Source of the DNA: Lachnospiraceae bacterium
Lineage (GTDB): Bacteria > Bacillota > Clostridia > Lachnospirales > Lachnospiraceae
Direction of reading: 5' to 3'
Assembly: GCA_015057405.1 (NCBI GenBank)
Contig: SVEK01000028.1
Location: 1-38,761, forward strand
Length of the DNA stretch: 38,761 bases
Position numbers and translations under genes: made by a program. Below, piece after piece: positions 28,759 through 38,637 of the stretch (its first letter is position 1; every line of letters starts with the position of its first letter). Under the pieces are notes generated by a model. It saw nothing but the letters and a program-made list of their open reading frames with translations, searched no databases and was not told where the DNA came from.

Positions 28759-29709
28759 ATGAGATATATTAATGAGTACCATGAAGGGGATACGTGCAGA
28801 GGGATATATCTGTGCAGATCAAAACAGGCTTTGACGGCAAGAACCGGTAAAACCTACTATTCCCTTACACTTCAGGATAAAACGGGAACCATCGATGCCA
28901 AGATATTTGATATCAATAGTGGCATTGATGAATTTGACGCAATGGATTATATAGAGGTTATGGGTCAGGTATCAAGTTTTAATGGCAATCTGCAGTGGAA
29001 ACTTATGCGTGTCAGAAGATGCGACGAAGGAGAATACAACGTAGATGACTATATGATGACTTCAAAGTATGACAGGGATGAAATGTTTGCAAATCTTATG
29101 AAATATATGTCGTGCGTTAAGAATCCGTATCTTAAACAACTCATAGATATGTATTTTGTAAATGACGAGAATTTTATAAAACGATTCAAAAATCATTCAG
29201 CAGCAAAAAGTGTTCATCACAGCTTCATAGGAGGACTCCTTGAACATACATTAGGTGTTGTAAAAATGTGTAATTTCATTGGAGATAATTATCCTTTTAT
29301 TGATAAAGAATTGCTTATGACCGCAGCATTGTTCCATGATGTGGGTAAAATGAGTGAGCTTGCCGAGTTCCCTGCAAGTGACTATACAGATGAAGGTCAG
29401 ATGCTGGGTCATATATTCATAGGAGCAGAGCTTATAGGCAACTCCATCAGAAAAATAGAAGGGTTCCCTGTGCCACTTGCAACAGAGTTAAGACACTGTA
29501 TACTTGCACATCACGGTGAACTTGAATTTGGTTCTCCAAAGAAACCGGCAATCGCAGAAGCATTTGCGCTTAATATGGCAGACAATACAGATGCAAAGCT
29601 GGAGATATTTACAGAAATATTCGACAATGCAAAAGACAACATGGAGTGGCTTGGATTCAACCGGATGTTAGATTCCAACGTAAGACAGACATACGGAACA
29701 AGAAAGTAG
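28759..29709 (+). CDS. yhaM: 3'-5' exoribonuclease YhaM family (OB-fold + HD)
   Basis: YhaM removes short 3' tails from mRNA and can degrade single-stranded DNA. The 316-aa protein has an N-terminal OB-fold (about 12-90; YSLTLQDKTGTIDAKIFD) and an HD domain (about 150-290) with HHSFIGGLLEHTLGVV, FHDVGKMSEL and later AHHGELEFGSP. These provide the metal-binding His and Asp residues. Length matches Bacillus subtilis YhaM (about 314). AGGAGG precedes ATG 28759. It follows the HtrA-like gene by 42 bp and may be co-transcribed with it. Confidence 0.92.
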   Translation: MRYINEYHEGDTCRGIYLCRSKQALTARTGKTYYSLTLQDKTGTIDAKIFDINSGIDEFDAMDYIEVMGQVSSFNGNLQWKLMRVRRCDEGEYNVDDYMMTSKYDRDEMFANLMKYMSCVKNPYLKQLIDMYFVNDENFIKRFKNHSAAKSVHHSFIGGLLEHTLGVVKMCNFIGDNYPFIDKELLMTAALFHDVGKMSELAEFPASDYTDEGQMLGHIFIGAELIGNSIRKIEGFPVPLATELRHCILAHHGELEFGSPKKPAIAEAFALNMADNTDAKLEIFTEIFDNAKDNMEWLGFNRMLDSNVRQTYGTRK

Positions 29710-29999: not shown

Positions 30000-31430
30000 G
30001 TGGCGGGACAAAAAAAAGAAAGAAAGGGCAGCGCGGGCTGTCCTTTTTCAAAAAACGATGTTATTGATTTGAAAATAGATGATATAGGTAATGAAGGCGA
30101 GGGCATCGGTCATTATGACGGCTATGCTGTTTTTGTAAATAATGCGTTGCCGGGGGATAAGATACGGGCCTTAATTATGAAAGTAAAGAAAAACTACGCA
30201 TTTGCAAAATTGCTTGAAATTGTCAACCCTTCAAATCTTAGAGTTGAACCTAAATGTAGTATATCTGCCCGCTGTGGCGGTTGCAATCTGCAGCATATGT
30301 CCTATGAAGGTCAGCTTGAATATAAAGAAAATAAAGTAAAGAATTGTCTTGTTCGCATTGGCGGATATGATGAGGCATATGTTAACAGCATTCATGAGCC
30401 TATTATAGGAATGACCAATCCATTTAATTATCGAAATAAAGCGCAGTTTCCTGTTCAACAAACACCGGATGGACAAATTGCAATGGGGTTCTACGCCGGC
30501 AGAACACACAGAATAATCCCAACAGACAACTGTAATATCCAAATGGATGAATCTAATCATATTGCGAAGCTTGTTCGTATGTGGATGACGGAACATAATA
30601 TTTCTGCGTACGACGAAACCAGCCATACCGGCCTTATTCGCCACGTACTGACCCGAATCGGGAAGAGTACCGGACAGATTATGGTATGTCTTGTTGTTAC
30701 GTCAAAAAAGGTACCACATACAGACAGCCTTGTTGATATTCTCCTTAAAGAAACCGGAATGACATGTATTTGTCTTAACATAAACAGTGAGAAAACGAAT
30801 CGTATCCTTGGCGACAAAATAATACCGCTGTACGGACAACCGTACATAGAAGACAACATCGGGGACCTCTGCTACCGTATCTCCCCGCTATCATTTTATC
30901 AGGTAAATCCGGAGCAAACGGTGAAACTCTATAACACTGCCCTTGAGTACGCAAACCTTACCGGCAATGAAGTTGTCTGGGATCTTTACTGCGGAATCGG
31001 AACTATAAGTTTATTTCTCGCAAAAAAAGCAAAGCAGGTGCTGGGCGTAGAGATAGTCCCGGAAGCCATTAATGATGCTAAAGTCAATGCACAACTTAAC
31101 GGAATAACAAATGCAACATTTCTTACCGGGGCAGCAGAAACCGTTGCAGCACAGGTGGCAGCAGACGAGTTATACAAGGATATCGCAAACCCCGACGTAA
31201 TTGTTGTGGATCCGCCTCGAAAAGGCTGTGACAGCAAGTTACTTGAGACGATTGTAAATGTGAAACCGGACAAGGTTGTGTACGTAAGCTGTGACCCAGC
31301 AACTCTTGCAAGGGATGTTAAGGTGTTGAGAGAGAATGGGTATGAGATGAAAAAGTGGAGAGCTTGTGATATGTTTGGAATGACGGGGCATGTGGAGACT
31401 TGTGTGTTGCTATGTTGCACCAATTCCTAG
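30000..31430 (+). CDS. rlmD: 23S rRNA (uracil-5-)-methyltransferase RlmD/RlmCD, C-terminus replaced by an integrated element
   Basis: RlmD-type enzymes methylate uridines of 23S rRNA using SAM. The 476-aa protein (GTG start with AAGGAG upstream) has a TRAM domain (about 15-75), [4Fe-4S] cysteines in CSISARCGGCNLQH, the SAM motif WDLYCGIGTISLFLA, VVDPPRKGC and the catalytic Cys in YVSCDPATLARDV. After HVET (ending at residue 467) the reading frame crosses attL (31388-31399) into element DNA and ends CVLLCCTNS. The native end, VVLLSQQKPDDVIEVE..., is stranded at 37636-37726. The element thus supplies a replacement tail and the enzyme is probably still active. Confidence 0.93.
   Translation: MAGQKKERKGSAGCPFSKNDVIDLKIDDIGNEGEGIGHYDGYAVFVNNALPGDKIRALIMKVKKNYAFAKLLEIVNPSNLRVEPKCSISARCGGCNLQHMSYEGQLEYKENKVKNCLVRIGGYDEAYVNSIHEPIIGMTNPFNYRNKAQFPVQQTPDGQIAMGFYAGRTHRIIPTDNCNIQMDESNHIAKLVRMWMTEHNISAYDETSHTGLIRHVLTRIGKSTGQIMVCLVVTSKKVPHTDSLVDILLKETGMTCICLNINSEKTNRILGDKIIPLYGQPYIEDNIGDLCYRISPLSFYQVNPEQTVKLYNTALEYANLTGNEVVWDLYCGIGTISLFLAKKAKQVLGVEIVPEAINDAKVNAQLNGITNATFLTGAAETVAAQVAADELYKDIANPDVIVVDPPRKGCDSKLLETIVNVKPDKVVYVSCDPATLARDVKVLRENGYEMKKWRACDMFGMTGHVETCVLLCCTNS
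31388..31399 (+). repeat. attL of the integrated element (12-bp direct repeat)
   Basis: GCATGTGGAGAC lies inside the codons for GHVET near the end of rlmD and is repeated exactly at 37624-37635. It marks the left junction. The 3' end of rum/rlmD is a known integration hot spot for serine-recombinase elements in Firmicutes. Confidence 0.85.
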
Positions 31431-32639
31431 AAATCTTTAATTTTACGCAGTTTTTCGAAAAAGAGGGATGAATTCAACCGCATGATTGCTGATTGCAGGG
31501 CGGGGAAAATAGACATGATTATTACCAAGTCCATTTCCCGATTTGCAAGAAATACGCTGGATTGCTTGAACTATGTGCGAGAGTTGAAAGATTTGGGGAT
31601 AGGGATTATTTTTGAAAAGGAAAATATCAATACCCTCGATGCAAAGGGAGAAGTGCTGCTTACCATTCTTTCCTCACTGGCACAGGATGAGAGCCGGTCC
31701 ATTTCAGAGAACTGCACATGGGGAATCCGCAGAAGGTTTGAAACAGGAAAACACAAAATGAGTACAAAGCGTTTTCTTGGCTACGATACGGATGAAACGG
31801 GGAAGCTGGTAATCAACAGGACGCAGGAACCGATTGTGGTTCGGCTGTATCAGGAATTCCTGGACGGAAAAACAACCGATTACATCAAGCGGATTTTTGA
31901 ACGAGAAGGCGTGAAAAATTGGGATGGCGGTACAAAGTGGCAGTCCACAATCTTAATGAGTATGTCGGAAAATGAAAAATACAAGGGTGATGCCTTGCTG
32001 CAGAAAAGTTATACGGTGGATTTCCTCACCAAGAAACGTACACAGAACAAAGGGGAAATCCAGATGTTTTATGTGGAGGATGACCATGATGCCATCATTT
32101 CAAAGCGGATATGGGAATGTGTACAGCTTGAAATAAAACGCAGGAAAAAGTATCTGGAGGAGCATGGGACAAACTCCTATTCCTACCGGCCGGAAAGCGA
32201 TCCATTTGCATCCAAGATAATTTGTGGAGACTGCAATAAGGTATTTGCACGGAAAGGCTGGCGGAGTAGCACGGGCGTTGACCGTAAGGTATGGCAATGC
32301 AGTGAACGCTACAAGGTCAAAGGAGTCATGGGATGTGCCAACCGCCATGTAGAGGAAGAAACGCTGATAAAGGCTTATCTGATGGCTTGGAACGCACTGG
32401 TGGAGAACCGAGAGGATTTCATGGAGCAGTGGGCAGAACAGCTGCAGAGCGAGAACCTATTGGAAGGTTATCGGGCAGAGAAGTTCATAGAATACACGGA
32501 TGGAGCAGAACCTTTGACGGAGATGGATACGGACTTCATGTTGAAAACACTGGACCACATCAAGGTTTTTGAGGATGGAACATTGTTGGTGGTGTTCCTG
32601 GATGGAACGGAGATTGAATGTAAAAATGAAGAGGAGTAA
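31431..32639 (+). pseudogene. Large serine recombinase, N-terminus deleted
   Basis: From about 31455 the frame reads KKRDEFNRMIADCRAGKIDMIITKSISRFARN, the middle of a resolvase catalytic domain. The preceding about 75 residues, including the YxRVS motif with the nucleophilic serine, are absent and no remnant lies between attL and this point. The rest is intact: LSSLAQDESRSISENCTWGIRRRFETGK helix, the Recombinase domain, and a zinc ribbon (CGDC at about residue 248 of the 385-aa frame, later C...C in WQCSERYKVKGVMGCANRH). The first ATG is 31482. The frame follows directly on the rlmD stop codon, in the same phase. It cannot catalyse DNA cleavage. Its codon use is more GC-rich than that of the cassette downstream. 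Confidence 0.85.
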
Positions 32640-32642
32640 GAG

Positions 32643-32683
32643 AAAGAATGTCAACGGGATTTTTTGGTTGGCATTCTTTTTGT
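32643..32683 (+). terminator. Terminator after the recombinase remnant
   Basis: Arms AAAGAATGTCAAC (32643-32655) and GTTGGCATTCTTT (32667-32679), one G-T pair, followed by a T-run. A strong intrinsic terminator that insulates the cassette from upstream read-through. Confidence 0.85.
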
Positions 32684-32710
32684 CGTACAAGTATACATTG
32701 ATGTCAATGA

Positions 32711-32766
32711 AATGTAATGCCATGTTACATTTTGTAATTGCCAATTACGTTGAATTGTAGTATTAT
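32711..32766 (+). promoter_or_regulatory. Cassette promoter with two palindromic operator candidates
   Basis: TTGCCA (32738-32743), 17 bases, TATTAT (32761-32766) forms a good promoter 25 bp before the XRE gene. The inverted repeat GTAATT GCC AATTAC (32734-32748) covers the -35 box, and a second, AATGTAA-N7-TTACATT (32711-32731), lies just upstream. Both share the half-site core GTAA/TTAC. This is the arrangement expected for autorepression by the XRE protein. Confidence 0.75.
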
Positions 32767-32790
32767 AAAAATAAGTGAAAGGATATTCTA

Positions 32791-33084
32791 ATGGATAAAT
32801 GTAGAAAAAGGGAAGAGTATATAAATAGAATGGTCGAGAATTTGCGGTTGTTAAGAACAGCGACATCGTTAACGCAAGAACAGTTAGCTGAAAAAGTAGG
32901 AGTTAGTAGGCAAACAATTATTGCTATTGAAAAGAAAAAGAGATGTTTGTCTTGGACTTTATATTTAGCATTGATTGCTATTTTTATAGCGAATGAAAAA
33001 TCAAACGAGTTAATTAGAAATTTGCAAATACTTGATATTTTCGAATTGCAATGTGAATCTGGAGGTAACGAGATTGAATATTAG
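32791..33084 (+). CDS. XRE-family helix-turn-helix regulator of the cassette
   Basis: The 97-aa protein has a Cro/CI-type helix-turn-helix at about residues 15-55 (LRLLRTATSLTQEQLAEKVGVSRQTIIAIEKKK), followed by the hydrophobic helix SWTLYLALIAIFIANEK common in clostridial members. It is the first gene after the island promoter and probably binds the paired palindromes at 32711-32748 to control itself and the five genes after it. AAAGGATATTCTAATG supplies the start context. Its last 11 bases overlap the next gene's TTG start. A role as a repressor relieved by stress or phage is an inference. Confidence 0.9.
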   Translation: MDKCRKREEYINRMVENLRLLRTATSLTQEQLAEKVGVSRQTIIAIEKKKRCLSWTLYLALIAIFIANEKSNELIRNLQILDIFELQCESGGNEIEY

Positions 33085-33532
33085 ATTTAGACACTTGAGT
33101 ATCAGTGATGAGAAAAATTATATATCAGGAATTGCGTTATGTTACAATACAATGAAAGAAGCTAATGTATTATTTGATGTTTTAGTGGAAGGTTTCGAGG
33201 CAAATCTTTCTAAAAAGATTTCTATCAGGTTTTATAAAAATAAATTTAACATGTATAATATGAGTATGTTAATTAGGGGAAGCAAAAATTTGTATAAAAT
33301 TGAACTTGAAGGAATTGAGAATATATATGTTGAAGAATTAGAAAAGGCAATAAAAGAAAATGGATATATTTTTATAGTTACAGCTCAGTCTAATATTGTT
33401 TCAGAGTTTAAATTGAACAAACAAAAGTATTGTTGTGTTAGTGAATTTTATATAGACAACAAGAAGGTGGAAGGGAATAAAAGAAAGAATAATTTTGCAA
33501 AAGATCTTGTAGAGCAATTCGTAAATAATTAA
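33074..33532 (+). CDS. Unrecognised 152-aa cassette protein
   Basis: No family recognised. TTG at 33074 is the likely start, with GGAGG at 33061-33065 (spacing 8), overlapping the XRE gene by 11 bases, a coupled arrangement. The protein alternates beta-like strands and short helices (NIRFRHLSISDEKNYISGIA; VLFDVLVEGFEANLSKKISIRFYK; NGYIFIVTAQSNIVSEF), has no membrane segment or signal, two adjacent cysteines (KYCCVSEF) and a basic C-terminus. The coupling to XRE suggests a partner of the regulator or a first enzyme of the pathway; nothing more can be said from sequence. The cassette's AT-rich codon use supports it being native to the island. Confidence 0.7.
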   Translation: MNIRFRHLSISDEKNYISGIALCYNTMKEANVLFDVLVEGFEANLSKKISIRFYKNKFNMYNMSMLIRGSKNLYKIELEGIENIYVEELEKAIKENGYIFIVTAQSNIVSEFKLNKQKYCCVSEFYIDNKKVEGNKRKNNFAKDLVEQFVNN

Positions 33533-33553
33533 ATTAAGAGGCGTGGTAAAGAG

Positions 33554-33985
33554 ATGATGGAATTTGATGATATGCCTATTGGCGTTAATGCTTTAGTATT
33601 TAATGATAAAAATCAATTGTTATTAGGAAAACGTGTAAATTGTTTTGGGGAAGGAACATTTGGACTGATTGGAGGCAAATTAAAAGTAGGAGAAACTATA
33701 GAGTCTTGTATTAAAAGAGAATTATTGGAAGAAGTAGGTATTTGTGTCAATATAGAGGATATAGAAGTTGTAAATTTATCGAGTACAAACATAGAAATAC
33801 CTATGCTTCAGATTGGTGTGTTAATAAAAAAATATTATGGTGAACCATATAATAAAGAAAAAGAATATTGTAGTGAAATAGGTTTTTTTGATTTGGATAA
33901 TTTACCGGAAATATTTGAAGTTACCAAAACAAATCTTGAATTATTTTTGCGTAAAGAATTTTATAATAGGAAATGCAATATTTAA
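33554..33985 (+). CDS. Nudix hydrolase of the cassette (MutT/NudG-like)
   Basis: A 143-aa minimal Nudix protein. The box reads GGKLKVGETIESCIKRELLEEVGI (about residues 41-64) and the preceding strand LLLGKRVNCFGEGTFGLIGG resembles MutT, NudG and related enzymes that hydrolyse nucleoside triphosphates, including oxidised or modified ones. Two consecutive ATGs (33554, 33557) are equally possible starts. It is 21 bp after the unknown gene and 18 bp before the radical SAM gene, within one operon. In the cassette it may sanitise, activate or remove a modified nucleotide; the substrate is unknown. Confidence 0.88.
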   Translation: MMEFDDMPIGVNALVFNDKNQLLLGKRVNCFGEGTFGLIGGKLKVGETIESCIKRELLEEVGICVNIEDIEVVNLSSTNIEIPMLQIGVLIKKYYGEPYNKEKEYCSEIGFFDLDNLPEIFEVTKTNLELFLRKEFYNRKCNI

Positions 33986-34003
33986 AATGCAGGAGGGATA
34001 TGA

Positions 34004-34996
34004 ATGAAAGCATCTAAAGAGCTTCAATATGTAAGATATTGTGATGGTTTCTTTGAAAAATTTGATAAAACAGATGGTATATGTAAAGAATGCTATTCTA
34101 ATACAGATTTTCTTAAGTGCAATAGATGTATTCCCTCTTTAAAAGAAATAGAACTTGATTATCCACTATTGATTAATTGGACAATTACAGGAAAATGTCA
34201 AAATAAATGTGTATATTGTTATGGTGATGATATAATTCAATGTAATGATATAACATTAAAAGAGGACTTAGAAGAAATAATTAATCATTTGAGATATATA
34301 AATCCAAAAGTAATTGTTGTATCAGGAGGCGAGCCTCTATTGCATCCACAAATTCAATATATTCTGGAACATTTGACTTTTTGCGATGTGATTGTTGATA
34401 CTAATGGGTTGGCAATATCACAGGATTTTTTTAGACATATTAAGGAAAATATGCATATTAGAATTTCTATCGATTCGGAAAAAGAAGAAATTAATGGGGG
34501 ATTGAGGAAGAATAAAAATTCAAATGCTACTAGAACTGTTATTAATAATATTATGCAATGTGTAGAAAGAAATATTCCTTTTTCAGTACATACTGTATTG
34601 TCAGATGTAAATGCACGAGGAATAACAGAATTAGGAGATTTTTTGATTGAAATAGGAGTTAAATTGTGGAGAATACTTATAGTGACACCGAATGATTTGC
34701 TTATAGATAAAGAAAATGTTAATAAAATGTGGATAGAAGATGCGGTGAAAAGAATAAAAGAGTATGCAAATGAAAATAGAGAACGAATAAAAATTAGATT
34801 GGCTAATAATGGCATATACAGTGGTAGAGGTATTATTTTATTAAATCCAGAAGGAAAGTATTATGTTCGAAAAATAAACGAAAAAGAGAAGAGCATAGTG
34901 GATATAAATAATCCTAAATTTCCAAAGGTAGAACAAATAATGAACTGCTTAGAACGTAATGCTCATATTGAGAGATATTTATATGAAATGATTTGA
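34004..34996 (+). CDS. Radical SAM enzyme with N-terminal CxxC pair
   Basis: The 330-aa protein has a radical SAM core with the cluster motif C65-x3-C69-x2-C72 (GKCQNKCVYCYGDD), the SGGEP motif at 107-111 (SAM amino group contact), VDTNGLAIS and SIDS strands. Ahead of the core are two CxxC pairs (C27-C30, C39-C42), a zinc-ribbon-like knuckle uncommon in this family. The C-terminus is short with no SPASM cysteines. The NWT-I-TGKC strand and the late region with R-G-I-I-L-L-N-P-E-G-K-Y-Y-V recall viperin/MoaA-like enzymes, but no diagnostic viperin motif proves this. GGAGGG precedes ATG 34004. Oxygen-sensitive chemistry on a small molecule or nucleotide is likely. Confidence 0.88.
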   Translation: MKASKELQYVRYCDGFFEKFDKTDGICKECYSNTDFLKCNRCIPSLKEIELDYPLLINWTITGKCQNKCVYCYGDDIIQCNDITLKEDLEEIINHLRYINPKVIVVSGGEPLLHPQIQYILEHLTFCDVIVDTNGLAISQDFFRHIKENMHIRISIDSEKEEINGGLRKNKNSNATRTVINNIMQCVERNIPFSVHTVLSDVNARGITELGDFLIEIGVKLWRILIVTPNDLLIDKENVNKMWIEDAVKRIKEYANENRERIKIRLANNGIYSGRGIILLNPEGKYYVRKINEKEKSIVDINNPKFPKVEQIMNCLERNAHIERYLYEMI

Positions 34997-35017
34997 TGTA
35001 GAAAGGATAAAACATAA

Positions 35018-35734
35018 ATGGTAGAATTTATATTAGAGTACATAGAACAAATAGTAATTGGTTTAATTGGCACATTTTTAGGAACATGGATTTTGTATTG
35101 TTGGGGAAAAAGACATTTTGTACATCCTTTTCGATATCATAAATCAAAAAAGCGTGTTAAGGAGGCGGGGGTAGTTACTTTTTTTTATGATCGAAAAGTA
35201 TTGCAAGCAGATGCTGGAACCATAGGAGATTATGTGGGAAAAGCAAAAAATGAGGTTTATTATGTGGGGTGTTGGTTATTTAGTTCATTAAATAGTTTAG
35301 ATTTGTCAAATACAATATTGGAAAAAGCACAACAAGGAGTGAAATTTCATTTTTGTGTAATTTCGCCAAAATCTATTTTAATTGATAAATTTTCAGAATT
35401 TTTTAATGAAAGTCGAGATGAACTTATAAAAAAATTAAATAGTACTTTAAATATGCTTTTTACTATTAAAAGTGATTTACCAGCGGAGTATAGAAAGAAT
35501 GTAAAGATATATATTCATGATCAAATTGTAACTACATCATTTTGGGCTATTGACCCTGAAGATGAAAAAAATGCATTGTTACAGTTGGATCATAAAATTA
35601 TCAAAAACATGAGATTTAATTCTTATGGTATGGAAATTAAATATTCTGATAAGAGTAAATTTGCAAATGAAGTAAAAAGAGGATATTTTGCTGTAATTGA
35701 AAGTGCAAAAGAAATAAAAGAAAACAAAATTTAA
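35018..35734 (+). CDS. Membrane-anchored protein with PLD-like half-domain, unknown function
   Basis: The 238-aa protein has one membrane span at residues 11-28 (IVIGLIGTFLGTWILYCW), a basic stop-transfer stretch and a cytosolic domain of about 185 residues. The stretch TIGDYVGKAKNEVYYVGCWLF...ILEKAQQGVKFHFCVISPKS resembles the first half of a phospholipase D-like fold (helix, WLF strand, helix, V-x-F-x-F-C strand). No HKD motif is present, so it is not an active PLD. The remainder (VKIYIHDQIVTTSFWAIDPED) could bind a ligand. AAAGGA precedes the ATG. A membrane-linked sensor or effector for a cassette product is a reasonable guess, no more. Confidence 0.65.
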   Translation: MVEFILEYIEQIVIGLIGTFLGTWILYCWGKRHFVHPFRYHKSKKRVKEAGVVTFFYDRKVLQADAGTIGDYVGKAKNEVYYVGCWLFSSLNSLDLSNTILEKAQQGVKFHFCVISPKSILIDKFSEFFNESRDELIKKLNSTLNMLFTIKSDLPAEYRKNVKIYIHDQIVTTSFWAIDPEDEKNALLQLDHKIIKNMRFNSYGMEIKYSDKSKFANEVKRGYFAVIESAKEIKENKI

Positions 35735-35798
35735 CTTTACTTTATTTGGTTGTTAATCTATACTAACACAGACAAAATTATTATATGGAGGTTTTGAA

Positions 35799-36713
35799 AT
35801 GTTTTTGACTATTACAGGAAAGTTAGGAAGCGGTAAATCAACAATATGTAAGATTTTGGCCCAAAAGCATGGGTTTAAAATATACTCAACTGGTGAAATT
35901 CAAAGAAAGATTGCATTAGATATGGGAATAAGTACTTTGGAATTAAATGAATTGATGAGAAAAGATTCCAAGTATGATGATTTAATTGATAATGAAGTAG
36001 TACGTATTTCTCGAGAATGTAGAGATGAAAATATTATTTTTGATTCAAGAATGGCATTTCACTTTGTCGAAGATGCATATGATATATTTGCTACGATAGA
36101 TCCGTCAGAAGCAGCTAGGAGAGTAATGCTCTCGCCTAGAGGGAATGAAGAAACATATGTGGATCAATTAGATGCTCAAAATAAATTGTTAGAAAGAAGC
36201 AGGTTGGAGAATGTAAGGTTTAAAGAGATTTATCAGATAGATAATTTAGATTATAGTAATTATAATTTGGTCATAGATACATCTTGGAATGAACCTGAAA
36301 ACTTAGCGGATATAATTTATAAAATGGTTTGTCAAGACAGAAAAAGAGAGAAACATCAAATTTTAATTTCGCCGAAGTCATTATATCCAACTGAAAAACT
36401 TACAAATATTAACATGGATAAGGTTGAAGCATATAGACATCAGTCCCTTAAAGTGGAAGATGAAGATGCGGTTTCTGTTATTTATTTTGAAAATTATCAT
36501 TATGTAATTGATGGGCATCATAGACTGTTGGCTGCTTTGTTAGATGAAAGGCCATTTATTAAAGCAGAATTTATTAATTATGATAAATATCCATTTTTTA
36601 AGGATACTAATAATTTAATAAGTGAATTACAGCATATTGGAAAAAGTACTTTGTATGACTACGAGGATGCAGGAAAATTTAGATATAAAAGTTACCCGGA
36701 TTATTATTTATAA
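35799..36713 (+). CDS. Archaeal-type CMP kinase fused to a ParB/SerK-like domain
   Basis: A 304-aa two-domain protein. Residues 1-175 form a P-loop nucleoside-monophosphate kinase: Walker A GKLGSGKST (7-15), YSTGEIQRKIALDMGISTLELNELM, FDSRMAFHFV, and ERSRLENVRFKEIYQID near 132-148. The layout, including DYSNYNLVIDTSW, is closest to archaeal (Cytidylate_kin2-like) CMP kinases. Residues 186-270 form a ParB/sulfiredoxin-like fold with LYPTEKL (possible catalytic Glu) and YVIDGHHRLLAALL (DGHHR at 238-242), as in free-serine kinase SerK and ParB CTPases. GGAGG precedes ATG 35799; a 64-bp gap separates it from the membrane-protein gene. It is the last cassette gene, followed by a strong terminator. 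Confidence 0.82.
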   Translation: MFLTITGKLGSGKSTICKILAQKHGFKIYSTGEIQRKIALDMGISTLELNELMRKDSKYDDLIDNEVVRISRECRDENIIFDSRMAFHFVEDAYDIFATIDPSEAARRVMLSPRGNEETYVDQLDAQNKLLERSRLENVRFKEIYQIDNLDYSNYNLVIDTSWNEPENLADIIYKMVCQDRKREKHQILISPKSLYPTEKLTNINMDKVEAYRHQSLKVEDEDAVSVIYFENYHYVIDGHHRLLAALLDERPFIKAEFINYDKYPFFKDTNNLISELQHIGKSTLYDYEDAGKFRYKSYPDYYL

Positions 36714-36754
36714 GATTCCAGAAATAATTCTGAATTAGGATATTGGGTATAAGG

Positions 36755-36792
36755 AATGACACTGGAATAAAGTGATTCTAGTGTCATTTTGT
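36755..36792 (+). terminator. Terminator closing the cassette
   Basis: Perfect 9-bp arms AATGACACT (36755-36763) and AGTGTCATT (36780-36788), with inner GAAT/ATTC pairing, then TTGTTG. A strong intrinsic terminator 40 bp after the CMP kinase-ParB gene. Confidence 0.85.
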
Positions 36793-36809
36793 TGTATTAA
36801 CAATAAAAA

Positions 36810-37522
36810 TAAACCACCTGCTATGCAGGTGTGTTCCCAAATAGCTTTAGCTTCAAGAAAAAAACTCCTTTGCTATAATAAGTGTAGGTTCGCCAACCGC
36901 ACTAAAAGCAAAGGAGGTATCCAAATGGATAAAAACAGTTTAGCACATACGCAGTGGGAATGTAAGTACCATATTGTATTTGCTCCGAAGTTTAGAAGAA
37001 AAGTTATATATGGAAAAATCAAGGCAGATATAGCACATATATTGAGTGAGCTATGCAAGAGAAAAGGAATTGAGATTATTGCAGCAGAAGTATGTCCAGA
37101 TCATATACACATGTTTGTAAGGATTCCGCCGAAGTATAGTGTTTCCTCAATTATGGGATATCTGAAAGGAAAAAGTTCGCTGATGATATTTGAAAGACAT
37201 GCTAACTTGAAATACAAGTATGGAAATCGTCATTTCTGGTGTAGAGGATACTATGTCGATACTGTAGGAAAGAATGCAAAGAAAATCGAAGAGTATATTC
37301 GGAACCAGTTAAAAGAAGACTTGGAATACGATCAAATGTCATTGAAAGAGTATATTGACCCGTTTACGGGTGAGCCAGTAGAAAAGGGCAGATAAAATAG
37401 GCTCTTTAGAGCCTGCCCGTGAACGCAGTGCGGAAGGCGAACTTTTCAATGCCTCTTTAGAGGCGGCAGGGAACAGCGGCTTATAGCCACAGAACAAACC
37501 ACCGGCTAAGCCGGTGGTCATG
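36810..37522 (+). mobile_element. IS200/IS605-type insertion sequence
   Basis: The element has the imperfect-end hairpins typical of IS200: left CACCTGC TAT GCAGGTG (36815-36831) and right ACCACCGGC TAA GCCGGTGGT (37498-37518), flanking one transposase gene. Two further hairpins with TT loops, GGCTCT/AGAGCC (37400-37413) and GCCTCT/AGAGGC (37451-37464), lie after the gene. No TnpB is present. Boundaries are approximate because IS200 elements make no target duplication. Confidence 0.85.
36925..37395 (+). CDS. tnpA: IS200-type Y1 transposase (TnpA)
   Basis: The 156-aa transposase cuts and joins single-stranded DNA through a tyrosine. Signatures are the HUH motif H60-I-H62 (CPDHIHMFV), RGYYVDTVGKN and YxxxQ (Y124-Q128 in EEYIRNQ), with Tyr124 as the probable nucleophile. 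The product starts MDKNSLAHTQWECKYHIVF, the standard N-terminus of the family, at ATG 36925, with AAGGAGG just upstream; the longer upstream frame crosses the left hairpin and is rejected. Reading frame is complete, so the IS may be active. It lies between the cassette terminator and the right attachment site. Confidence 0.93.
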   Translation: MDKNSLAHTQWECKYHIVFAPKFRRKVIYGKIKADIAHILSELCKRKGIEIIAAEVCPDHIHMFVRIPPKYSVSSIMGYLKGKSSLMIFERHANLKYKYGNRHFWCRGYYVDTVGKNAKKIEEYIRNQLKEDLEYDQMSLKEYIDPFTGEPVEKGR

Positions 37523-37623: not shown

Positions 37624-37635
37624 GCATGTGGAGAC
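37624..37635 (+). repeat. attR of the integrated element
   Basis: Second exact copy of GCATGTGGAGAC. The next bases continue the native rlmD reading frame (ACG GTA GTT CTC TTG), proving that this junction belongs to rlmD. Confidence 0.9.
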
Positions 37636-37726
37636 GGTAGTTCTCTTGTCCCAACAAAAACCGGATGATGTAATCGAGGTTGAAATAGAGTTAGATGAGC
37701 TGGATTTGAATATTATGCAAATGTGA
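37636..37726 (+). pseudogene. Displaced native 3' end of rlmD
   Basis: Read in frame from CAT at 37625, the codons give HVET then VVLLSQQKPDDVIEVEIELD and a short tail to a TGA at 37724-37726. This is the usual C-terminal continuation of RlmD enzymes in this group (HVETVVLLS). Joined to residue 467 of rlmD it would make a 496-aa protein. Without a start it is a stranded fragment. Many relatives have a longer extension, so the native gene may also have ended differently. Confidence 0.85.
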
Positions 37727-37789: not shown

Positions 37790-38637
37790 ATGGAATGGAT
37801 TGAGCGATTAAATAGTGCTGTTGAATACATGGAAGCTCATTTGCTTGAGAAGATAGATTATGAAAAGGTTGCTGAGATTGCAAATTGTCCGGCGTATCAT
37901 TTTCAAAGAATGTTCTTTTACATGACAAATATTTCAGTTTCTGAGTACATCAGAAGGAGAAGAATGTCTTTGGTAGCAGTTGATTTACAAGATGCAGGAG
38001 CAAAGGTTATTGAAATATGGATATGATTCACCGACAGCTTTTAATCGCGCATTTCAGAGCATACACGGTATAGCACCATCTGTAGCAAAGAAGGAAAATG
38101 CAACTTTGAAATCTTATCCGGCAATAAAGTTTTCTATTTCGGTATAAGGTATGGAGGAAATGAATTTCAGAATTGAAACAAAAGAAGCCTTTCGGATTGT
38201 TGGAAAAAGTTGTCCATTAAGTAAGGTGCTTGAGGAAAATTTTGCAAGAATACCACACGAATGGGATATAGCACTGGAAAATGGAACCCTTGATAATAAT
38301 GAATGATAAGCCGGAAGGATTGTTGGGTGTAAGCGTACATAATGAAAAAGAGTGGAAATTTTTTATTGCTGTAAGTTCTACAGAAGATAGTGATAACTTT
38401 GAACAGTACCATATTCCTGTTGCAACTTGGGCTGTGTTTTCAGGACGCGGAACCAATGTTTCTCTGCAAGAATTGGAACGCCGTGTCATAACAGAATGGT
38501 TGTCGACATCCGGGTATGAGTATGCGGAGATACCTGATATTGAGGTGTATATAAAAGCAGATCCGAAGGATGCAATATATGAATACTGGCTACCGGTTGT
38601 GAAGAAGGAGGATAATAGTGGCAGTATCAACAACTAA
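37790..38637 (+). pseudogene. AraC-family regulator with GyrI-like effector domain, broken by three lesions
   Basis: The first part (37790 to about 38010) encodes an AraC helix-turn-helix: MEWIERLNSAVEYMEAHLLEKIDYEKVA and CPAYHFQRMFFYMTNISVSEYIRRRRM. Near 38011 about ten bases appear lost, and the rest (KYGYDSPTAFNRAFQSIHG) continues in another frame. A TAA at 38145-38147 interrupts that frame before GMEEMNFRIE. A further shift near 38288-38296 moves into the frame encoding MNDKPEGLLGVSVHNEKEWK...SGYEYAEIPDIEVYIKADP, a GyrI/AraC_E_bind effector domain. Three separate lesions indicate an old pseudogene. It lies outside the island. The ribosome site AAAGGTGG before ATG 37790 is intact. Confidence 0.88.

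Follow-up and report, generated by a model that had tools for sequence, protein, structure and literature searches.

A radical SAM enzyme and a kinase/ParB-like fusion in a candidate nucleotide-modification operon inserted at rlmD of a Lachnospiraceae genome

The DNA analyzed, hereafter the window, is the 38,761-nt contig SVEK01000028.1 of a Lachnospiraceae bacterium (assembly GCA_015057405.1). At locus 32711..36792, a six-gene operon with candidate regulatory sites belongs to an insert of 6.2 kb that adjoins the 3' end of rlmD; the operon encodes enzymes of recognized families with intact motifs, among which a kinase/ParB-like fusion and a radical SAM enzyme recur together in Bacteroidota. 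As judged from its sequence, the operon is best read as a mobile cassette that would make or control a modified nucleotide, probably for defence. Taken as a whole, it is best explained as a regulated cargo operon for nucleotide modification, most likely defensive: a tentative reading, held with less than even confidence.

The localization of all features is reported in Table 1. As anticipated by a previous sequence-only reading, the six open reading frames are AT-rich and lie on one strand, between positions 32791 and 36713: G+C is 27–28% across the 1-kb bins from 33001 to 36000 and 31.5% in 36001–37000, while the remaining bins of the window range from 32 to 44%. The genes are closely packed, with one 11-nt overlap and gaps of 18–64 nt, the largest just before the kinase gene, and the terminator scan found no terminator-like site on the same strand between them. 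This supports a single promoter-terminator unit, whose last gene ends at 36713 and whose terminator ends at 36790. The same reading had described an operator/promoter insulated by a terminator, and a strong 3' terminator: both terminator regions fold far better than their shuffles (z -5.33 for 32640–32695; z -7.05 for 36740–36800), and tandem GTAA-N7-TTAC sites cover a predicted promoter. The window-wide promoter scan shows no excess (33 sites, against 32.9 in shuffles). The GTAA-N7-TTAC pattern is found only twice in the window, at 32714 and 32734 (shuffle mean 0.89); because two or more sites occur anywhere in 20 of 100 shuffles, the weight of the pair lies in its 20-bp spacing over the promoter.

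Table 1. Position and strand of the features described in the window
Feature	Position	Strand	Remarks
Left direct repeat GCATGTGGAGAC	31388..31399	.	Within rlmD 3' end; left insert edge; identical 12 nt at 37624
Serine recombinase, truncated	31482..32639	+	Resolvase, Recombinase, Zn_ribbon_recom above Pfam cut-off
Upstream terminator	32641..32681	+	3' of recombinase gene, insulates operon; fold -19.5 kcal/mol
Operator-like site 1, GTAATGCCATGTTAC	32714..32728	.	GTAA-N7-TTAC
Operator-like site 2, GTAATTGCCAATTAC	32734..32748	.	7-nt arms flanking one base; overlaps -35 box
Predicted promoter TTGCCA-17-TATTAT	32738..32766	+	Consensus match 10/12
XRE-family helix-turn-helix protein, 97 aa	32791..33084	+	HTH_3 36.6 bits, cut-off 23
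152-aa protein, no recognized family	33074..33532	+	TTG start after GGAGG; 11-nt overlap with XRE gene
Nudix hydrolase, 143 aa	33554..33985	+	NUDIX (PF00293) 48.4 bits, cut-off 21.1; intact Nudix box GKLKVGETIESCIKRELLEEVGI
Radical SAM enzyme, 330 aa	34004..34996	+	Radical_SAM 56.0 bits, cut-off 29.5
Probable membrane-anchored protein, 238 aa	35018..35734	+	One N-terminal helix
NMP (CMP-type) kinase ~1-178 + ParB-like domain ~186-304	35799..36713	+	Cytidylate_kin2 (PF13189) 63.8 bits, cut-off 28
Operon terminator	36753..36790	+	16-pair stem
IS200/IS605-type transposase TnpA	36925..37395	+	Y1_Tnp 141.9 bits, NF033573 157.4 bits, both above cut-off
Right direct repeat GCATGTGGAGAC	37624..37635	.	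Right insert edge
Second, detached rlmD-type 3' tail, HVETVVLLSQQKPDDVIEV...	37625..37726	+	Translation

The proposed kinase, radical SAM, Nudix and XRE identities all hold, each above its Pfam cut-off. The Nudix box listed for the hydrolase was read from its sequence. The combination of radical SAM, Nudix and NMP kinase families, with intact Nudix box, P-loop, CX3CX2C and GxxR, fits nucleotide chemistry. None of the libraries used (Pfam, NCBIfam, PADLOC, PHROGs) names the set, single genes matching non-specific PADLOC models, in agreement with the earlier view that no named system is represented. The XRE protein is a probable autorepressor. For the 152-aa protein, Pfam, NCBIfam and PADLOC give nothing up to E 1, and PHROGs gives three weak matches of unknown function (best E 0.00075); of 150 genomes, only its own has it. 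The protein previously indicated as PLD-like and membrane-bound retains only the second attribute: a single N-terminal segment of modest hydrophobicity (Kyte-Doolittle peak of 1.73 for a 19-residue span, at residue 12), modeled with low confidence as a helix at 2–33, suggests that it is probably membrane-anchored, but no Pfam domain scores above cut-off, PF19319 (DUF5919) has no match in its own genome at E 0.001, and the mean pLDDT is 49. Close relatives of the radical SAM, 238-aa and 152-aa proteins are absent from the sets searched.

The last gene had been read as a CMP kinase-ParB fusion, which is partly upheld. Its kinase half is well above the Cytidylate_kin2 cut-off and is modeled with block values of pLDDT 67–93, its matches including shikimate and CMP kinases, but the (d)CMP kinase model TIGR02173 is missed (86.9 bits, cut-off 102.1). 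PADLOC pVip-kinase gives 74.1 bits, against 97.6 for a chromosomal relative (L034). The ParB-like half has an intact GxxR motif (G239-H-H-R242, GHHR), but is below the ParBc_2 cut-off of 23.6 bits (C-terminal piece by itself 19.0 bits, E 0.0016; whole protein 16.5 bits), and its residues 184–206 and 215–304 are modeled with pLDDT below 50. L131, the nearest separate protein to carry this motif, has a sub-threshold match to DUF4032 alone, and none to a ParB model. The fusion family is present in 28 of 348 host-family genomes, the window's included, mostly in plain chromosomal settings. For the 27 others, no match to the other five operon proteins was found within up to 1.5 kb of the kinase gene; GxxR, kept in the window copy, is absent from 26 of 27 sampled family relatives.

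The mobile island previously suggested can be sharpened to the insert at rlmD, bounded by 12-nt repeats and featuring a recombinase remnant and a second rlmD tail. The recombinase adjoining rlmD, the direct repeats and the displaced rlmD tail mark it as an rlmD-inserted serine-recombinase element. The recombinase, a remnant of the element's integrase, is missing roughly the N-terminal 54 residues of its resolvase domain (aligned model positions 55–144 of 145). The first 46 nt of the detached tail, repeat included, match the rlmD 3' side of a relative (L087) at 45 of 46 positions, counted by eye. The same slot was compared in six genus relatives with at least 2.3 kb of visible sequence: PADLOC-type defence genes (AbiE + AbiL-type, HKD+Snf2-type, HEC-05-type) occupy it in three, and no PADLOC match is found among the slot ORFs scanned in the other three. 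The antiphage role suggested earlier receives only circumstantial support from the former, while the latter speak against it.

Conservation of the gene neighbourhood had been indicated as a check. The complete six-gene set is in no other genome among those searched, so that selection on the set is unproven, but the pair formed by kinase fusion and radical SAM does recur: the two genes follow each other directly in the Parabacteroides plasmid NZ_CP143950.1 and in Bacteroides rodentium NZ_BAKJ01000003.1. The Bacteroidota fusions are 32–33% identical to that of the window over their full length, GxxR intact, and the Parabacteroides homologue passes TIGR02173 (107.9 bits, cut-off 102.1). Proteins with membrane helices, identified by eye, are encoded directly before the fusion. 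Capsule genes lie next to this cassette, and nearly every PADLOC match in it comes from the viperin and kinase models, which are non-specific. The single Rhizobium plasmid examined, one of 36 Rhizobium records, encodes a 39% identical relative of the Bacteroidota radical SAM enzyme; its neighbours, named below, also favour the nucleotide-modification reading.

In the proposed mechanism, the operon would be cargo of a small serine-recombinase element at the rlmD 3' end, now probably immobile. The XRE protein would repress its own operon through the tandem operator, until some signal relieves repression. The radical SAM enzyme may modify a nucleotide or nucleotide precursor, and the NMP kinase could phosphorylate the product, or supply the substrate, the ParB-like domain binding an NTP and switching the fused kinase. 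The Nudix enzyme might clear product or side product, the membrane-anchored protein could be sensor or effector, and the purpose would most likely be to fend off phage or other mobile DNA. We regard as unlikely a bolder version, a mobile nucleotide-analogue immunity of new kind, where an orphan, viperin-like but non-viperin radical SAM enzyme makes a modified nucleotide, whose level an NMP kinase carrying a built-in ParB-type NTP switch both reads and controls, with Nudix self-protection, a membrane effector, a SPASM-type second branch in Bacteroidota, and GxxR-less chromosomal kinases as domesticated relatives.

The sequence-only reading had drawn an analogy with prokaryotic viperins, which proves weak. 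In alignments, this enzyme shows C65-x3-C69-x2-C72, GGEP and an N-terminal CxxC/CxxC extension, with no SPASM match; CX3CX2C is the radical-SAM cluster motif of viperins (PMC9642334). A true but divergent viperin (SAND) system, with a 3'-deoxy-3',4'-didehydro (ddh) nucleotide as product, would agree with the cluster motif and the lack of SPASM, with the PADLOC pVip score (76.6 bits), with viperins as best solved-structure matches by sequence, with the viperin-type N58 and N-P-x-G C-terminus, and with an AU test not rejecting placement among viperins (p 0.46). It is nonetheless very improbable. By NCBIfam NF038283, whose cut-off none of the 391 genomes of the class sample passes, the enzyme scores 68.4 bits against 180, no better than generic radical SAM proteins, while NirJ2 stands at 84.4; a profile from eight plasmid viperins gives it 64.9 bits and places it 14th among 47 ORFs, its own included. 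It shares 20 of the 36 columns invariant in these viperins (19 in the other alignment), against 21 for the non-viperin L059 and also for two members of the viperin grouping, L095 and L097. At 223 it has R where viperins have K, and at 196 H instead of N. In a free tree of 50 rows, its end branch is very long (3.2) and lies outside the viperins. The PADLOC viperin and viperin-kinase models are non-specific, the latter also matching ordinary chromosomal kinases. At the eight plasmid viperin loci compared, an annotated deoxynucleoside kinase lies just upstream in three, among them Nostoc pNsp_a, where an HTH gene and that of a 172-aa protein also precede it. None of the viperin neighbours compared resembles the 152-aa protein.

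A cassette for a nucleotide-like small molecule (antibiotic or signal), with no role in phage defence, is a real if minor possibility: the Bacteroidota and Rhizobium cassettes join radical SAM with phosphoribosyltransferase and dehydrogenase, which reads as biosynthesis, Rhizobium featuring adjacent adenine phosphoribosyltransferase, PRPP synthetase and nucleotidyltransferase genes. In the window operon, however, no exporter, transferase or phosphoribosyltransferase is recognized by the four libraries, and the defence-type genes in three of the six rlmD slots point away from it. That chance gathered on one insert a kinase-fusion gene of host type and cargo genes unrelated to it is rather doubtful. 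The mostly chromosomal settings of the family, without the other genes, and the 64-nt gap before the kinase would suit it; the shared low G+C and strand, the uninterrupted gene series, the pairing repeated in Bacteroidota and the GxxR kept here argue for a unit. Finally, the XRE and 152-aa proteins might form a toxin-antitoxin-like module, the remainder being separate metabolic cargo, as their gene overlap and antitoxin models among the weak XRE matches could suggest. This is decidedly improbable, since those models match mainly over the HTH region, far below cut-offs, and no toxin family is among the library matches of the 152-aa protein.

If the preferred reading, a nucleotide-modification operon for defence, is true, radical-SAM nucleotide chemistry in bacterial conflict reaches beyond viperins, the ParB-type nucleotide switch acquires an NMP kinase as its immediate enzyme partner, and a function is suggested for an unexplained kinase family. 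Even without a defence role, the kinase fusion and radical SAM enzyme, found in two unrelated settings, are a clear lead to a new modified nucleotide.

Among known systems, viperin (pVip/SAND) loci similarly combine, on mobile DNA, a SPASM-less radical SAM enzyme with a nearby nucleotide kinase; the window operon differs by its score below the NCBIfam cut-off, another kinase family, the ParB-like fusion, Nudix and membrane proteins, and an orphan radical-SAM branch. Serine-recombinase elements described in PMC13214566 insert at rlmD of Bacillota, with a pfam07508 recombinase and direct repeats containing GTGGAG, all shared by the window insert, which is only 6.2 kb long, with a truncated recombinase and no conjugation gene seen. 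The ParB-CTPase fold is presented in PMC12704722 as a widespread NTP-binding module, with GxxR (Box II) as its phosphate motif, fused to many enzymes: sections 7 and 8 name HNH, methyltransferase, acetyltransferase, CBS and others, no NMP kinase, and the words cytidylate and adenylate are absent from its main text. The window fusion likewise joins a GxxR ParB-like domain to an enzyme on mobile DNA, the partner being an NMP kinase. The Bacteroidota cassette differs by a SPASM-containing radical SAM enzyme (23% identical), an AAA_28 kinase, a dehydrogenase and a phosphoribosyltransferase, and by the absence, among the nine ORFs compared, of homologues of the window XRE, Nudix, 152-aa and membrane proteins; it is alike in the GxxR kinase fusion, with radical SAM directly after and membrane protein(s) directly before.

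The enzyme families, intact motifs, layout and candidate regulation sites of the operon are established observations. The window spans an entire contig, and its genes suggest a host in the Lachnospiraceae. All six genes are found on the same strand (see table) and are AT-rich, in agreement with the sequence-only reading: G+C content is 27-28% in bins 33001-36000, 31.5% in 36001-37000 and 32-44% in the remaining bins of the window. The placement of the operon between terminators, also proposed by that reading, is supported by RNA folding against shuffled sequences, with z -5.33 for the terminator 5' of the operon and z -7.05 for the strong one 3' of it. Between the upstream terminator and the operon, the pattern GTAA-N7-TTAC occurs twice at a spacing of 20 bp, and its second copy overlaps the -35 box. 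These are the only copies in 38.8 kb; since at least two copies occur anywhere in 20 of 100 shuffles, the evidential weight lies in the closeness of the two sites. The promoter scan of the window shows no excess (33 sites vs 32.9 in shuffles), so the predicted promoter rests on its position.

Gene layout of the operon
Product	Position	Strand	Remark
XRE	32791-33084	+	ORF
152-aa protein, no known family	33074-33532	+	TTG start behind GGAGG
Nudix	33554-33985	+	ORF
Radical SAM	34004-34996	+	ORF
238-aa protein, probably membrane-anchored	35018-35734	+	ORF
Kinase with ParB-like C-terminus	35799-36713	+	ORF

The 12-nt sequence GCATGTGGAGAC is present twice in the window, at 31388, within the 3' end of rlmD, and at 37624, where it opens a detached rlmD-type tail, HVETVVLLSQQKPDDVIEVEIELDELDLN (37625-37726), matching the rlmD 3' side of the genus relative L087. 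Finding a 12-nt repeat in 7 kb is in itself nothing unusual; the case for an insert is carried by the displaced tail. The mobile island described earlier is borne out by the direct repeats together with this tail, its edges being 31388 and 37635. Between the repeats lie a serine recombinase, the operon and an IS200/IS605-type transposase. The recombinase is devoid of about 54 N-terminal residues; the element is probably no longer self-mobile. Hairpins are located close to both ends of the transposase gene (36815-36831 and 37497-37519), as expected for the IS200-type group. At 37790-38637, AraC-like and GyrI-like ORFs, judged by eye, are apparently split across frames. In streptococci, PMC13214566 describes rlmD insertions of serine-recombinase elements with direct repeats.

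The 3' side of rlmD is a variable slot in the genus. In the nine genus relatives fetched, rlmD adjoins, within 0.8 kb, its preceding gene (28759-29709 in the window), and the sequence after rlmD differs in the seven with comparable sequence. At least 2.3 kb past rlmD is visible in 6 of the 9 relatives, from which 18 ORFs, a subset, were scanned against PADLOC. Strong matches are found in three of the six slots (L085, L086 and L087): HEC-05 (E 2e-29), HKD+Snf2 (4e-120), and AbiEi/AbiEii/AbiLi (2e-30 to 1e-71); the slot ORFs scanned in the other three relatives show no PADLOC match. These matches indicate sequence similarity, not proof of defence.

The radical-SAM protein features CX3CX2C (65, 69, 72), GGEP and an N-terminal CxxC/CxxC extension. 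A RiPP maturase was set aside because no SPASM match is found by Pfam; the ORF list begins at 50 aa, and a smaller precursor may exist. The closest non-self matches, obtained from 348 family, 391 class and 10 genus genomes (E 1e-15, 1e-12 and 1e-15, respectively; family and class samples overlap), reach 69.5 bits at best, with 24-33% identity. At E 1e-5, 25 plasmid records and one phage record are retrieved, every one below 60% identity. Short-pattern scans, which miss diverged relatives, gave no match for this protein in genome contigs, and were fruitless in viral contigs for both this and the membrane protein. As judged by sequence, the radical-SAM protein is an orphan among the sets searched.

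An analogy with viperins, drawn on in the sequence-only reading, finds some support: by sequence, the nearest solved structures are viperins, and in the viperin alignment this protein is the only one of 48 added rows with the viperin-type N at position 58. In a 50-row tree it falls outside the viperin branch, with an end branch of 3.2, while the AU test does not reject its placement inside viperins (p 0.46); 6 candidate pieces were left out of the tree. Its score with the NCBIfam viperin model NF038283 is 68.4 bits vs a cut-off of 180, and the NirJ2 model scores more (84.4). The PADLOC viperin model pVip gives 76.6 bits, and a SPASM-type Parabacteroides protein also reaches 64.9. With a profile of 8 plasmid viperins, the protein ranks 14 of 47 ORFs, a set fetched for resemblance to it or to a viperin model and including near-copies. 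Of the viperin-invariant residues, 20 of 36 are present, vs 21 of 36 in a non-viperin protein. Viperin identity is rejected in view of the family score, the rank in the profile search and the residue comparison, with the AU test permitting inclusion; the protein may be a distant relative of viperins. A keyword search of one open-access library listed no paper joining a prokaryotic viperin with Nudix. A separate viperin-like radical-SAM protein (L065:970-2181), grouped with viperins in the tree, has a C-terminal part which by eye resembles a response regulator.

The match of the kinase to the PADLOC viperin-kinase model pVip-kinase (74.1 bits in the window vs 97.6, 76.0 and 66.7 in relatives L034, L129 and L033) was likewise discounted as a sign of viperin partnership, since all three scanned relatives, none with an adjoining radical SAM, match the same model.

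Of the proposed CMP kinase-ParB fusion, the kinase part stands. The N-terminal half is an NMP kinase: it scores 63.8 bits with Cytidylate_kin2 and 86.9 of 102.1 bits with TIGR02173, and its model (pLDDT 67-93 by block) has shikimate- and CMP-kinase matches. The ParB label is less sure, ParBc_2 reaching 19.0 of 23.6 bits in a poorly modelled C-terminal half, though this half contains YVIDGHHRLLAA, with an intact GxxR, which PMC12704722 names as the ParB-CTPase fold's phosphate motif. The same GHHR stretch is found in a Chloroflexi protein (BLAST E 2e-7, 48 residues), encoded in overlap with an adenylate kinase ORF (L131:9719-11184), possibly an unfused form of the same pairing; its single Pfam match, DUF4032, falls short of the cut-off, and this protein therefore cannot decide on the ParB label. 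A keyword search of one open-access library listed no paper joining ParB with cytidylate kinase.

GxxR is present in 4 of 32 aligned kinase relatives (L002 from the host family, L129 from Oscillospiraceae, and the near-identical Bacteroidota L122 and L130) and missing from 28, in some of which the tail is short or absent; 26 of the 27 host-family relatives (L002-L028) are without motif or tail. We infer loss, not original absence, and the GxxR-less kinases of the host family may represent decay of a nucleotide switch. The kinase is represented by relatives in 28 of the 348 family genomes, the window's own included. In the 27 others, no match to other operon proteins is found within up to 1.5 kb of the kinase. 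A wider view, of six ORFs on each side, was taken for 20 of these loci, of which 19 were seen (L042 having no kinase row), the other 7 being viewed within up to 1.5 kb. The neighborhoods of the 19, by eye, are chromosomal-looking and varied: 18 show no match to another operon protein, while in L048 a radical-SAM-like ORF (E 8e-7) lies about 5 kb from the kinase, on the opposite strand. Kinase loci devoid of other operon proteins count against the main reading. Nothing resembling the kinase was found in phages; viral-contig alignment scans gave two 25-residue matches, in the second scan.

Searches with the 238-aa membrane protein found no relative in plasmids and, among 199 phylum genomes, matched its own only. 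For the PLD-like label given to it, Pfam, the structure model and a family search gave no confirmation of DUF5919/PLD. Two tandem adjoining membrane proteins (L140:1261-2773 and L141:1261-2771, helices by eye) have a layout resembling it; the one scanned matches DUF5919 below cut-off. The 152-aa protein, similarly, gave no match in plasmids and, among 150 family genomes, is found in its own only. A DNA search with 32640-36800 gave nothing useful in plasmids or phages.

In the proposed mechanism, the XRE protein would repress its own operon, the radical-SAM enzyme would attack a nucleotide or precursor, the kinase would phosphorylate the product or supply the substrate, with the ParB-like half sensing NTP, the Nudix enzyme would clear product or side product, and the 238-aa protein would sense or act at the membrane. 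That the operon does nucleotide chemistry of some kind we hold to be about an even call; the full mechanism, defence included, is more tentative, at somewhat over one third.

The expectation that the genes are conserved together elsewhere holds in part, for the pair of kinase fusion and radical SAM. A Parabacteroides distasonis plasmid and Bacteroides rodentium (L122:6612-12458 and L130:7751-14396) carry a full-length fusion homologue, 32-33% identical and with GxxR intact, directly followed 3' by a radical-SAM/SPASM gene, whose product shares 23% identity with that of the window. On the 5' side of the fusion are proteins in which membrane helices are seen by eye, one in the plasmid and two in B. 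rodentium, preceded by an AAA_28 kinase, NadR-like and far below the NCBIfam cut-off. The genes after the radical SAM encode a dehydrogenase, a phosphoribosyltransferase of hypoxanthine type and a protein of 215-226 aa; genes of sugar and capsule type are found upstream of the cassette. Among the nine Bacteroidota cassette ORFs compared there is no homologue of the XRE, Nudix, 152-aa or membrane proteins. The fusion of L129, 44% identical and with GxxR, has no radical-SAM match within 10 kb, and three Rhodococcus plasmids, viewed out of four with the gene, show no annotated radical SAM within 8-10 kb in an incomplete gene table. The pair thus recurs in two unrelated settings, too few to prove a functional link.

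A relative of the radical SAM of the Bacteroidota cassette is present in the one Rhizobium plasmid viewed (L133:6319-12270), in a cassette of adenine phosphoribosyltransferase, radical SAM, two small proteins, nucleotidyltransferase, PRPP synthetase and dehydrogenase; this gene company points to nucleotide or sugar-phosphate chemistry. That no named system has the set found in the window, as first reported, agrees with the family libraries used, none of which names it, and with keyword searches in one open-access library, which listed no description of it. The operon is filed with mobile radical-SAM and nucleotide-kinase cassettes, outside the viperin family.
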